This document shows, in pieces, positions 13,496-39,560 of a stretch of 39,560 nucleotides of DNA. The stretch is from assembly GCA_009903775.1 (NCBI GenBank), contig WYEM01000096.1, forward strand, positions 1 to 39,560. The letters are read 5' to 3'. The notes under the pieces are model-generated. The model did no database searches and was not told the DNA's origin. It saw nothing but the letters and a program-made list of their open reading frames with translations. Source of the stretch: Nitrososphaerota archaeon (GTDB lineage Archaea; Thermoproteota; Nitrososphaeria; Conexivisphaerales; Conexivisphaeraceae). The position numbers and the translations under genes were made by a program. The number at the start of each line of letters is the position of its first letter. Within the stretch, counting starts at the first letter, position 1.

Positions 13496-13915
13496 TCACA
13501 GGTCCAGGAGGAACCTGACGCAGCGCAGCCCCCCGCACTCGCCCACGTACATCATGTGGTAGGTCACCGCCTTGACCTCCCTCCCCATCCCGTGCCTCGA
13601 GGGATCGTAGGGCTCCCCCCTCATGGAGGCGCGCAGCCGCCAGCGGCCCTCGTCCAGGTCCACGGAGAACCTCGCGTAGGCCACCCTCTCGACCTGGAAC
13701 CTGTCCAGGACGCACTCCAGCCAGCCGTACAGCAGCCCCTCCGCGTCCTCCCCCTCCAGCTCGCAGCTCCCCTCGACAGAGCCCCTGACCCTCCTCACGT
13801 CGAGCATCACGGACATCATAGCGCGGGCGGCGTTCGCGAACGCCTCGGCGAGGGTCCTCCCGTAGGCCTCCATCAGGGCGTCCGACGAGTGGGGCAGCTC
13901 CCTGTACCACCTCAT
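13496..13915 (-). CDS. Archease
   Basis: A protein of 139 residues beginning MRWYRELPHSSDALMEAYGRTLAEAFANAARAMMSVM. It then has an acidic middle (ELEGEDAEGLLYGWLECVLDRF) and ends VKAVTYHMMYVGECGGLRCVRFLLDL, matching archease in length and layout. Archease activates the RNA ligase RtcB in tRNA splicing and repair. The acidic metal-binding residues expected for that role appear to be present. Its ATG overlaps the stop of the upstream P-loop gene (ATGA at 13912-13915). RtcB is not in this window. Confidence 0.9.
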   Translation of the reverse strand: MRWYRELPHSSDALMEAYGRTLAEAFANAARAMMSVMLDVRRVRGSVEGSCELEGEDAEGLLYGWLECVLDRFQVERVAYARFSVDLDEGRWRLRASMRGEPYDPSRHGMGREVKAVTYHMMYVGECGGLRCVRFLLDL

Positions 13916-14937
13916 CCCCGGCCCCTCCCGCCGATCCTCTCCTCCAGGAAGGAGAAGAGCTCGTCCTCGTCGCGGAATATCCTGGTCGAGTAGTACCTGA
14001 AGAACGGGCTCTCCGGCCCCCTGAAGACGACGTAGACGTCCTTCGCGCCCGAGAAGGCGTGGGCCATCTCCGAGAGGACGCCCGGCGACATCACGGGCGA
14101 GTGGTAGTACACTATGACGAAGTCGCTCTGGTCTATCAGCTGGTAGTCCCTCGCCACCGTCTGGTCGTAGATGTCCTCCCTCACGGACTCCGCCTCGGGG
14201 CCCCCCTCCTCCAGTATCTCCATGTCCTCCACCTCCCCGGGGTCGAACACTATGAGCCCCCTCCTCCTGAGCTCCGAGGCGAACCCCCTGACGCGGTCGG
14301 CGAGGTCCGCGCCCTCCCCCACGTGCGTCATCGGGTAGCTCAGGTAGGCCTTCGGGGCCGAGGGGTCCTCCAGGAGCCTCCCCAGCGTCTCCGGGGGGTG
14401 GCCGGCGGGTATCACGAAGAACGGCTTCCTCTGGAAGTCCGCTATCGACTTCGTCAGGAGCGTCTCCTCGTCCCTCCAGACGAGCATGTCCTTCAGGCCC
14501 AGCCTCCCCCTCCACTGCGGGGACCCCTCGAGCCTCCTCCTCATGCCCGCTATCGAGTCCACGACGGTCGCGTAGACGTCGGGGGAGAGCAGGTTCAGGT
14601 AGTAGAAGTCGAACGCCTGGAGGAGGTGCCTCCTCCACCTGAAGCAGGCGTGCGTGCTCACGATCGCGTGGGACCCCCCCTCCCCCGCGCCCGAGCGCAC
14701 CTCGCCCAGGATCCTCTCGAAGACGGTCGTCCTCAGGAAGTTCAGGGTGGAGGGCGCCAGGTTCAGTATCTTCCCCTCCGGGATCTCGATCCCCAGGTTC
14801 CCGGCCGCCTCGAACATCATGGGGCCGACGTCGAACACCCTGACCTCCCTCCCCGATGCCCTGATGGCCTCCGCGGCCCTCGCTATGTACTCCCCCCTGC
14901 CGCTCCCGCTCGTGCCCGTGACGACGGCCCTCGCCAC
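13912..14937 (-). CDS. P-loop nucleotide-binding protein with nucleoside 2-deoxyribosyltransferase-like C-terminal domain
   Basis: A protein of 341 residues. The N-terminal half resembles an adenylate-kinase-like P-loop domain starting VVTGTSGSGRGEYIARAAEAI. The usual Walker A lysine is replaced by Arg (GSGRG). The C-terminal half (from about residue 190) has KAYLSYPMTHV, a VFDPGEVEDMEIL segment, YQLIDQSDFVIVYY and SPGVLSEMAHAF. This is the layout of nucleoside 2-deoxyribosyltransferase-like folds. It is translationally coupled to archease. The GTG start at 14937 has a TATA-like box (CTTATATCG at 14960-14968) about 26 bases upstream. Its substrate is unknown, and coupling to archease suggests a link to RNA or nucleotide processing. 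Confidence 0.6.
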   Translation of the reverse strand: MARAVVTGTSGSGRGEYIARAAEAIRASGREVRVFDVGPMMFEAAGNLGIEIPEGKILNLAPSTLNFLRTTVFERILGEVRSGAGEGGSHAIVSTHACFRWRRHLLQAFDFYYLNLLSPDVYATVVDSIAGMRRRLEGSPQWRGRLGLKDMLVWRDEETLLTKSIADFQRKPFFVIPAGHPPETLGRLLEDPSAPKAYLSYPMTHVGEGADLADRVRGFASELRRRGLIVFDPGEVEDMEILEEGGPEAESVREDIYDQTVARDYQLIDQSDFVIVYYHSPVMSPGVLSEMAHAFSGAKDVYVVFRGPESPFFRYYSTRIFRDEDELFSFLEERIGGRGRG

Positions 14938-24165: not shown

Positions 24166-24957
24166 TTGCCCACGGAGCTCCTCTACCTGAACGACTCCTA
24201 CCTGAGGAGGTTCGACGCGACGGTCGTCAGGGCGGACCCACGGGGGGTCGTGCTAGACAGGACAGCCTTCTACCCGGGGGGAGGCGGCCAGCCGCCCGAC
24301 TCCGGTTACCTGATCGCGGGCGGGGAGCGCCTGCCCGTGGAGGGGGCCTCGATGGACGGCGACGAGGTCCTCCACGCGGTGCGGGGCCCCGCCCCTCCGG
24401 CGGGGGCCCGCGTGGTCGGGGAGCTGGACTGGGGGAGGAGGTACGCCCACATGAGGCTCCACACTGCAATACACCTGCTCGACGCGCTCCTCGTGAGGTC
24501 GGGCGCCGAAGGCCAGATCACGGGGAGCCAGATATACGACGACCGCGCCAGGGTCGACTTCGACTGGCCGGGCTTCTCGAGGGAGGCCCTCCAGCGCCTG
24601 GTGGATGAGGCGAACTCGGAGATAGGGAGGGGGAGGAGGGTGCTCGTGAGGTACCTGACGGGGGAGGAGGCCCGGGCGATCCCGAACATAGCCAGGACGG
24701 CCCCGGGGAGGGAGCTCCTGGGCAGGCTGGAGGTCGTCAGGGTCGTCGAGATAGAGGGGCTGGACGCCCAGATGGACGGGGGGACCCACGTCTCCGACAT
24801 AAGGGAGATAGGCCGCATAGCGGTGACACGGGTGGAGAACAAGGGAAGGAGGAACAAGAGGGTCGAGTTCACCCTGGGCCGATGGACCTTCCGCGCTCGG
24901 CCTCGGCCAAGGCATCGGCCATCCTGGCCACCTGCTCCGGGGCAGGCCTCTCCCTGA
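24166..24957 (+). CDS. alaX: Alanyl-tRNA editing protein AlaX
   Basis: A protein of up to 263 residues related to the editing domain of alanyl-tRNA synthetase. It removes wrongly attached serine or glycine from tRNA-Ala in trans. It has YLNDSYLRRFDATV at the start, TAFYPGGGGQPPDSG, the zinc-binding HMRLHTAIHLLDALL (HxxxH) and MDGGTHVSDIREIG near the end. Here an Asp precedes GGTH where alanyl-tRNA synthetases have Cys. The conserved part ends at KRVEFTLG (about 24880). The rest overlaps the broken flavodiiron gene antisense by 89 bases and looks unconserved. Confidence 0.9.
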   Translation: MPTELLYLNDSYLRRFDATVVRADPRGVVLDRTAFYPGGGGQPPDSGYLIAGGERLPVEGASMDGDEVLHAVRGPAPPAGARVVGELDWGRRYAHMRLHTAIHLLDALLVRSGAEGQITGSQIYDDRARVDFDWPGFSREALQRLVDEANSEIGRGRRVLVRYLTGEEARAIPNIARTAPGRELLGRLEVVRVVEIEGLDAQMDGGTHVSDIREIGRIAVTRVENKGRRNKRVEFTLGRWTFRARPRPRHRPSWPPAPGQASP

Positions 24958-25256
24958 ACGACTCCACGCCGAGGACGCGCAGGCCGGCCTCCCTGAGCGC
25001 GTTCTCCACGCGCCTGGCGGCGTTGGATCCCCACGCGTACGACACCATGGCCGCCGCCGGCTTGCCGGTGCCCTTCATCTTGGACCTGATGAGGTGGAGG
25101 ATGTACTCCATGCGGGGATGCACCTCCGAGTCGTACGTCGGGGTGGCCAGCACCATGGCGGACGCGGAGTTCGCCCGCGCGATGAATTCCTCGGGGCTCC
25201 CGCTGTCCACGTCGTTCGCCGCGAAGGAGCTGACGGACATCCCCCTCCTGACAAAA
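24869..25256 (-). pseudogene. C-terminal flavodoxin-domain fragment of a flavodiiron protein
   Basis: About 127 residues remain, from RRGMSVSSFAANDVDSGSPEEF to the TGA at 24869. LATPTYDSEVHPRMEYILHLIRSKMKGTGKPAAAMVSYAWGSNAARRVENALREAGLRV is typical of the FMN-binding flavodoxin domain of FprA-type proteins. The upstream part of the gene is replaced by the TnpB element. The matching N-terminal piece lies on its other side at 26563-26789. Compared with the usual ~400-residue protein, roughly 200 central residues are missing. The gene therefore lost sequence as well as being split. Confidence 0.8.
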
Positions 25257-25299
25257 TGAACGGCAAGCCCCGCCCTTCTTGGCGGGGATGGTGGGAATG

Positions 25300-25308
25300 G
25301 CTTAAAGG
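25300..25308 (+). promoter_or_regulatory. TATA-like box for tnpB
   Basis: GCTTAAAGG lies about 26 bases before the ATG at 25330. It favours that start over the in-frame ATG at 25312. Confidence 0.5.
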
Positions 25309-25329
25309 GCGATGCCCACATGCCTTCCG

Positions 25330-26562
25330 ATGCCCGCCGTGGGGTTCCGCTTCAGGGCTTACGCGGGCCAGCGGACGTTGGGGGCGTTAAAGGCCCAGTT
25401 GAGGCTGGCCTGCGAGGTCTACAACACCCTGCGGCGGGCGGACATCGATTTCCGCCGCGAGAACGGGAGGGGACTGAGCCTCACGGAGCTGAGGCAGCTG
25501 GCGCTGGACCTGAGGAAGCGGAACGAGGACTACCGGCAGCTCTACTCCCAGGTGGCTCAGGAGATCGCCGACCGGTTCTACAACGCCAAACGGAGGTTCC
25601 TCGAGGGCTCCGCGAGGAGGTTCCCCAGGGAGAAGAAGCCCCACAGGTACTACTCGTTGACGTACCCGCAGAAAGGCTGGAGGATACTCAGCGTCAGGGA
25701 GATCAGGGCGGGAAGCAGGAACAGGAAAAAGCTCATCACGCTGAGGCTGTCCCACCTGGGCACCTTCAGGGTCATCGCCCACAGGGACTTCCCGATGGAC
25801 GATGTGAGGAGGGTGGCGGTGAAGCTCGCCGGGTCCGGGAGGTTATATGTATCCTTCTTCGTCGAGGACTACGAGTTCCCGCGGCTCCCCGGGACGGGCA
25901 GGGCGGTCGCCATCGACGTCGGGGTGGAGAAGTTGCTCGTGACCTCCGACGGCGAGTACCTGCCGAACCCGAGGCCCTATGAGAAGGCACTCAAGAAGCT
26001 GAGGAGGCTGCAGAGGGAGCTCTCGAGGAAGAGGTTCCTCTCCCATAACTGGCTCAGGACTAAAGTAAGGCTGGCCAGGGCGCACGAGCACCTGGCGAAC
26101 CTGAGGAGGGACACGTACATGAAGCTGGGGAGATACCTGGCCGAGCGCTACGACGTGGTGGCCATGGAGGACATCGACGTGAAACGGCTGATCGGTGAGT
26201 CGAGCAGGGCGCTCAGGAGGGGCCTCCAGGACGCCGCCCTCGGCATGATGCGCTCAATAGTGAAGTACCAGGTCGAGAAGTACGGGAAGGCATTCCTCCT
26301 CGTCGACCCGAGGGACTCCTCGAGGGCGTGCGCGAGGTGCGGGTTCGTGAAGCATGATCTGAGGCTGGGCGACAGGGCCTTCGAGTGCCCGGCCTGCGGC
26401 TGGAGGGTCGATCGCGACTACAACGCGTCCCTCAACGCGCTGAGGAGGGCAGGGCGGGAGCCACCCGCGGCGCCTGTGGAGCTCCGCCCTCTACCCGCGG
26501 CCGAGGGCCGCGGGCAAGGTGGGGCAGTGAAGCAGGAAGCCTCGCCCTTCAGGGCGGGGTAG
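25330..26562 (+). CDS. tnpB: TnpB RNA-guided nuclease
   Basis: A protein of about 410 residues, the usual TnpB length. The RuvC-like catalytic triad is intact: Asp in [15 protein letters not shown], Glu in [12 protein letters not shown] and Asp in [16 protein letters not shown] zinc finger (CARCG then CPACG) lies between the last two. Upstream, [21 protein letters not shown] is the conserved helical region. TnpB proteins cut DNA next to a transposon-associated motif, guided by an RNA from the element's right end, and help the element persist. The product looks active. Its reading frame ends inside the right-end hairpin. Confidence 0.93.
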
Positions 26563-26580
26563 CTCACCCTGCGCGGGTCG
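26440..26580 (+). ncRNA. Predicted right-end guide RNA (reRNA/omega RNA) region of TnpB
   Basis: In characterised TnpB systems the guide scaffold overlaps the 3' end of tnpB and ends at the element's right end, with the guide taken from the flanking DNA. Here the 3' end of tnpB runs into the hairpin at 26541-26559. The guide would begin at about 26563 (CTCACCCTGCGCGGG), which is flavodiiron-gene sequence. The limits are inferred from the family, not from RNA data. Confidence 0.45.
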
Positions 26581-26789
26581 ACCACCTCCCGGAGGGCGTC
26601 GATGAACTGCTCCGAATACGCCCCCTTCCACGTGTCTATCAGCACGAAGCCGTCGGGCGCCCTCAGCAGGTAGGAGTTGTAGGTGATGCCCTCGGGGATC
26701 CTCCAGGCGGCCTCGAAGAACTCGGTCCTGTCGTCGAGCCTCAGGAGCCAGACGCCGTCGTCGATCTCGCGCACCTGATATTTGACCAT
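26563..26789 (-). pseudogene. N-terminal fragment of the flavodiiron protein
   Basis: The ATG at 26789 starts MVKYQVREIDDGVWLLRLDDRTEFFEAAWRIPEGITYNSYLLRAPDGFVLIDTWKGAYSEQFIDALREVVDPRRV, the opening of the metallo-beta-lactamase domain of FprA-type O2/NO reductases. The TnpB element begins just before the point where the HxExDH di-iron ligands should come, so none of the metal site survives. The frame runs on antisense into tnpB and stops at 26418. The promoter is still in place. Confidence 0.8.
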
Positions 26790-39283: not shown

Positions 39284-39386
39284 TCTAGAAAATTCCGGGT
39301 GGTGGGCGCCAGTCCGATGCTATGGCCCGGATGCGCGGAGCGGCGCCGCTCAGCGCCGATGTCGCCGCGATCAGTTCCAAATGATA

Positions 39387-39421
39387 GTGAAACGGCAAAC
39401 CTCGCCCTTCAGGGCGGGGAG
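39387..39421. mobile_element. Lone IS605/IS1341-type end (relic)
   Basis: GTGAAACGGCAAAC leads into a hairpin of CTCGCCC and GGGCGGG arms around TTCA. The hairpin (39401-39419) is identical to the right-end hairpin of the tnpB element at 26541-26559. No tnpB lies within the window on either side. It is either a relic or the edge of a very short non-autonomous element. Confidence 0.7.
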
Positions 39422-39560
39422 GGGGTCAGATCTACCTCTGGGGGCGGAAGCGCGGAGTACCGTATGAAGCCCCTGATCCACCTCTGGCCCGGCGGCGTAT
39501 CCACGCGCGCCGGAGGATCGATCTCCCATTTATCGTTGCCCGGAATTCCGCGCCGCCCCT
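39409..39560 (-). pseudogene. 3' part of an unidentified gene ending inside the insertion-sequence end
   Basis: On the reverse strand one frame enters from the right edge and reads GNDKWEIDPPARVDTPP, then GQRWIRGFIRYSALPPPEVDL, which looks like real protein. It then runs into the IS hairpin and stops at a TGA (39409-39411) formed by the hairpin itself. The natural C-terminus was therefore probably cut off by the insertion. The family is not recognised. Confidence 0.45.

Follow-up and report, generated by a model that had tools for sequence, protein, structure and literature searches.

The DNA stretch analysed here (the window, 39,560 nucleotides) is contig C112 of a metagenome-assembled genome (MAG) of 1.45 Mb, which consists of 117 contigs and is 79.84% complete. 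On its reverse strand, the gene of a flavodiiron protein (FDP), an enzyme that removes oxygen or nitric oxide, is present in two pieces, and the space between them is filled by a TnpB element on the forward strand, whose DNA is abutted by the N-terminal FDP piece at 26567/26568 (Table 1). The original prediction had placed the split FDP gene and the TnpB element at the right coordinates, and its claim that the element splits the gene was borne out by the comparison with G001, a complete genome of the same genus, which holds the closest FDP homologue found and was used as the main reference for residue numbering. Both pieces belong there to one protein of 398 aa with ODP (di-iron) and flavodoxin matches. 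The N-terminal piece matched this intact protein with E=6.5e-28 (62% identity) and the C-terminal piece with E=2.7e-35 (56%), so the identity of the gene as an FDP is not due to chance. The 150-aa ORF listed for the C-terminal piece starts inside the element, and the real FDP homology runs from near 25252. The FDP gene and an alanyl-tRNA editing (AlaX-like) ORF are convergent, and their 3' ends overlap by about 90 nt (24869-24957). Across the window, Rfam gave no match at gathering scores and the tRNA scan found no tRNA. A search of the genome_contigs collection with the TnpB protein gave 84 pattern matches, of which 0 were confirmed, and the records of the window's own genome may be absent from that collection.

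Table 1. Features of the interrupted FDP gene and of the element inside it (window positions)
Feature	Position	Strand	Remark
FDP C-terminal piece	24869..25252	-	Begins near residue 279 of the G001 homologue, within the flavodoxin domain; 56% identity and alignment
TGAC, presumed family-2 target motif at the boundary of FDP and left end	25249..25252	+	TTGAC precedes the family-2 copy on contig C42
5' arm of the left-end hairpin, of family-2 origin	25253..25279	+	Right limit uncertain by a few bases
Family-1 TnpB element, left hairpin loop to right end	25280..26567	+	Near-full copies on C89 and C20 are 92% and 90% identical
tnpB ORF, start codon uncertain	25312..26562	+	Pfam OrfB_IS605 and Cas12f1-like_TNB
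Right-end hairpin	26539..26560	+	Element terminus TAGCTCAC at 26567
FDP N-terminal piece	26568..26789	-	Equals residues 1-75 of the G001 homologue; 62-65% identity and alignment

Fourteen FDP-like proteins (L002-L015) were obtained from the 13 of 60 relatives that gave matches to the N-terminal piece. Each of these aligned homologues is a single gene with one open frame of 396-433 codons, and among them no intact relative was seen in which the two pieces are separate genes. In the alignment, the window has no counterpart to residues 76-278 of the G001 protein, a loss of 203 residues or 609 bp, in agreement with the earlier estimate of about 200 missing residues. The missing segment includes the H-x-E-x-D-H motif (H83, E85, D87 and H88 of the G001 protein), and the removal of the di-iron site had been recognised correctly. 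In this enzyme family, these residues and later ones are the iron ligands. The N-terminal piece ends 7 residues ahead of the motif (residues 83-88) and the C-terminal piece starts within the flavodoxin match (260-373), both as described before. The di-iron beta-lactamase-like domain expected of an FDP, with H-x-E-x-D-H and further ligands, is lacking, and the flavodoxin domain is left with its C-terminal part alone, which gave an FMN_red match (E=3.2e-06). Judged from these alignments, the window gene is a broken member of the FDP family.

The element in the gap is assigned to family 1 of the TnpB elements in this genome. By homology its protein has kept the RuvC and zinc-finger residues of IS605-type TnpB, and it matched the solved TnpB structures 8bf8 and 8h1j, while an alignment is shown for 9yyg only. 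Subterminal hairpins are predicted at both element ends, as in IS605-type elements: the DNA fold of the hybrid left-end hairpin had z -2.38 (5 of 200 shuffles equally good) and that of the right-end hairpin z -1.73 (12 of 200), and for comparison the family-2 left end on C42, folded one base short, folds weakly (z -0.60). The sequence (C/T)AGCTCAC was present in 11 of the 14 right ends listed. An 11-nt direct repeat, TCCTCGAGGGC, occurs at 25598-25608 and 26317-26327 of the window, and some family-1 copies lack the approximately 719 bp between the two repeats, which is a common internal deletion to a non-autonomous form. This deletion joint was found by pattern on C11 and C45; for C29 and C48, only overlapping alignments indicate the same boundary, and the family-1 copy on C16 is cut at another place. 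At L059 two family-1 fragments (C48:13289-13715 and 13748-14024) lie in opposite orientation, 32 nt apart, and one of them is truncated at a sequence similar to the right hairpin, ATCAGGGCGGG.

On the right side of the element, the antisense strand of the FDP gene carries TTTAT followed by C or T at the position of the family-1 right-end join in 5 of 5 homologues (L002-L006). This site falls in the Ile-Lys-Tyr codons (residues 76-78), and because these codons are conserved the five homologues are not independent. TTTAT occurs 8-13 times on that strand in three AT-rich homologues and twice in L006 (53% GC), whereas the G001 gene (63% GC) has a single one in 1197 nt, so the gene of the same genus carries the weight of this comparison. 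TTAT was also seen upstream of 9 of the 9 other family-1 left ends listed, with the full TTTAT in 4 of them, at varying distance from the hairpin and in counts made without a shuffle control. The window copy of family 1 has no TTAT on its left side. An insertion 3' of a short target motif, here the TTTAT of the empty site, is characteristic of IS605-type elements, and by sequence the right junction fits an ordinary family-1 insertion.

The left junction was different. Positions 25249-25269, i.e., TGAC and the following 17 nt, are identical to the left end of the family-2 element on C42 (21/21) and match a hairpin scar on C20 at 17/21, compared with 10-12/21 for six family-1 left ends and a maximum of 14/21 in 500 shuffles of the C42 left-end region. 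The match to the two other family-2 left ends tested was no better than chance (C32, 10/21; C72, 13/21), and the window left end is therefore one variant within family 2; C42 is the only full family-2 copy with a left end of this type, and the C20 scar has it less well. A 16-mer from the window left end occurs three times in the genome (reversed-pattern control, 0); the other two sites correspond to one family-2 element of full length and one scar, and no further copy with the hybrid end was seen in the genome. Past the hairpin loop, positions 25281-25341 agree with family 1 at 40-51/61 and with family 2 at 29-32/61, the latter within the shuffle maximum of 33. The switch between the families sits in the loop of the hairpin that is common to both, and the left end of the window element, as read from these comparisons, is a hybrid with an outer part of family 2 and the rest of family 1.

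The element on C42 encodes its own TnpB. Its host ORF reads to TTGAC and can resume in frame after GGGTCAG, to a stop; two of the four shifted joins tested (-1 and +2) are also open, and the in-frame reading gives weak support to the ends of the C42 element without proving them. Of 22 family-2 left ends, 18 have TGAY in the 22 nt that precede them (10 of the 12 scars, 8 of the 10 longer copies), whereas TGAY occurred in 9.4% of 6000 22-mers drawn at random from these loci. At the point of the left junction, TGAY was absent from the homologue stretches compared, and the target is visible in the window sequence only.

It is likely that two TnpB elements had entered the FDP gene before recombination between their left-end hairpins deleted the DNA between them. 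Such a history, with two insertions and a single hairpin-to-hairpin deletion, accounts for the junctions on both sides, for the 609 bp (203 codons) that are missing and for the hybrid nature of the left end. An IS605-type element of family 1 would have inserted in the Ile-Lys-Tyr codons, 3' of TTTAT, and one of family 2, either complete or reduced by then, would have inserted 3' of TGAC near residue 279 in the same orientation, placing two families with different target motifs in one FDP gene. Recombination or replication slippage between the similar left-end hairpins of the two elements would then have removed what else there was of the family-2 element and some 609 bp of the FDP gene, di-iron motif included, together with the TTTAT and the outer left end of family 1. 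A dead gene would remain, occupied by a TnpB element whose left end is hybrid. The join lies within the hairpin common to both left ends, which may reflect a deletion that joined two copies of a repeat. The former co-residence of the two elements, the order of their insertion and the molecular route of the deletion are what we infer from this arrangement; among the genomes compared, none was found with both elements still in the FDP gene. The earlier view of an insertion that came with, or was followed by, a deletion holds as far as the deletion is concerned, but it assumed one element, and the left end is that of another TnpB family.

Other histories were weighed against two insertions followed by a hairpin deletion. 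One is that a single element, with a left end that was already hybrid, inserted at TGAC and that a later deletion on its right side stopped at the element boundary and TTTAT. The left junction alone does resemble a normal insertion of the family-2 type, and the left ends of family-1 copies vary ahead of the hairpin (C20 differs), so the hybrid could predate the insertion. However, the right junction would have to hit by chance both the exact end of the element and the sole TTTAT of the G001 gene on that strand, and the hybrid end was seen in no other copy among the sites of the 16-mer; we regard this history as unlikely. An artefact of assembly, in which two repeat copies of the element from a mixed-strain metagenome were joined, has some ground, since the MAG consists of 117 contigs and contains repeated elements as well as strain variants, but both flanks come from the same gene in the correct order and strand, and the hybrid hairpin would presumably need reads of its own, which makes an artefact quite improbable. 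It is very hard to believe, finally, in a single family-1 insertion at TTTAT with an ordinary one-sided deletion and family-2-like bases that arose by chance: the right junction fits family 1, and of the four left ends of family 2 compared with the window, two fail to match it, yet the C42 match extends over all 21 positions including the motif, and the shuffles never exceeded 14.

Related deletions and scars were found elsewhere in the genome. The family-2 hairpin pattern, with up to 2 mismatches, gave 31 matches (reversed-pattern control, 1), and 30 loci were examined. Rule-based sorting assigned 12 of the 30 family-2-like sites to hairpin-only scars of about 50 nt, a class whose right-end condition was also satisfied by 102 of 3000 random 50-mers, and 10 sites to the left-end context of longer copies (6 with a TnpB-type leader and 4 with the leader of a short derivative). 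The remaining sites were family-1 right ends (2 of 30) and others (6 of 30, the window included). Contigs C32 (L127, 1-5850) and C26 (L128, 1-6211) hold a full-length element and an approximately 50-nt scar, respectively, at the same site, and their flanks are 99.2% identical over 4,068 nt and 95.4% over 348 nt. The C32 element is 1.5 kb and full length, with a tnpB frame that is apparently broken into two ORFs. Since a few bases differ between the C26 scar and the ends of the C32 element, the scar did not arise from that copy by a recent deletion, and it may go back to an older one. The presence of two such nearly identical contigs within one MAG shows a strain mixture in the bin.

The window itself carries a solo hairpin scar of family 2 (39386-39429, forward strand, 44 nt) after TGAT (39382-39385), with the terminus GGGGGTCAG. 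Short family-2 derivatives of about 190 nt by alignment, with no room for TnpB, were seen at L100, L107, L110, L113 and L116; they keep the left hairpin, in some cases a TTTTAA-like stretch, and the region adjoining the right end. This last part is where the guide RNA of TnpB would lie, and the short derivatives could be stand-alone guide RNA units with flanking host DNA as the guide.

The mobiliser of these elements was searched for with PF01797, the Y1 transposase TnpA, which had a match in 9 of 21 genomes searched and none in the MAG (80% complete) or in the complete G001 genome. TnpB matches numbered 24 in the MAG and 2 in G001, yet neither has a Y1 transposase match. A serine recombinase, the candidate mobiliser of the IS607 type, was represented in the MAG by one PF00239 match just over the cut-off (E 4.5e-5).

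The original prediction had also suggested that the loss of the enzyme may reflect the habitat and had proposed a search for a second FDP gene. This search, with the intact FDP as query, returned only the two window pieces and weak matches, so that the MAG, at 80% completeness, yielded no second FDP, with one weak ODP-domain match on C7 (E 1.8e-6, domain positions 2-80) as a possible exception. ODP-domain matches on C92 were rejected as a second FDP because they come from two 351-aa proteins of the beta-lactamase fold without a flavodoxin domain in Pfam. A second FDP may be encoded elsewhere in the genome, about 20% of which is missing. The FDP is patchy among the relatives: matches to the N-terminal piece were obtained in 13 of 60, and in 6 of the 19 genomes of the order (G001-G019, several of them incomplete). 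With a gene so patchy in the order and a MAG of 80% completeness, absence is common and the inference to habitat is unsupported, as nothing ties the loss to the habitat. The loss in the window is in itself one more patchy absence of FDP.

The significance of the locus lies rather in how the sequence was lost. Two TnpB elements that share a hairpin can remove host sequence permanently, beyond the interruption of a gene, and since this sequence is gone for good, a later loss of the element cannot restore the FDP gene. The hybrid suggests that element ends are exchangeable between TnpB families with different target motifs. It is a more tentative idea, and one we think rather doubtful, that the hairpin core shared by different TnpB families is a genome-wide substrate for deletion and end-swapping in this lineage; if true, it would turn elements into solo scars, remove the host DNA between neighbouring elements and create new left ends, possibly with a new target motif.

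Recombination between two copies of an insertion sequence can delete the DNA between them. The proposed history of the window locus is similar in that two similar elements would have been involved and the intervening DNA lost, but only a short hairpin, not the whole element, is shared here. In Haloquadratum walsbyi, a TnpB element of 1500 bp is reduced to a 52-bp form of termini only by deletion between the palindromes of its ends, and pairs of strains show both forms (PMC3119063). The near-terminal palindromes of these IS605-type transposons and PATEs act as direct repeats, much as proposed for the window; in the deletions described there, both repeats belong to one element (PMC3119063), whereas here two TnpB families were probably involved and host DNA was lost. 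Among the decayed IS200/IS605 loci of Halanaerobium hydrogeniformans, an ends-only copy is described and recombination between elements is inferred (PMC7290912). Those loci are like ours in the TnpB ORF, a hairpin at each end, insertion 3' of a motif of 4-5 nt and decay to ends only, and they differ in that one element has an intact tnpA (PMC7290912), whereas the search for a Y1 TnpA gave no match in the MAG or in G001. Within the part of the literature covered, no account was found in which host DNA is lost through a deletion that joins elements of two different TnpB families. The decay seen at this locus is clearly of a known kind, to which it probably adds a deletion between two TnpB families that takes host sequence with it.
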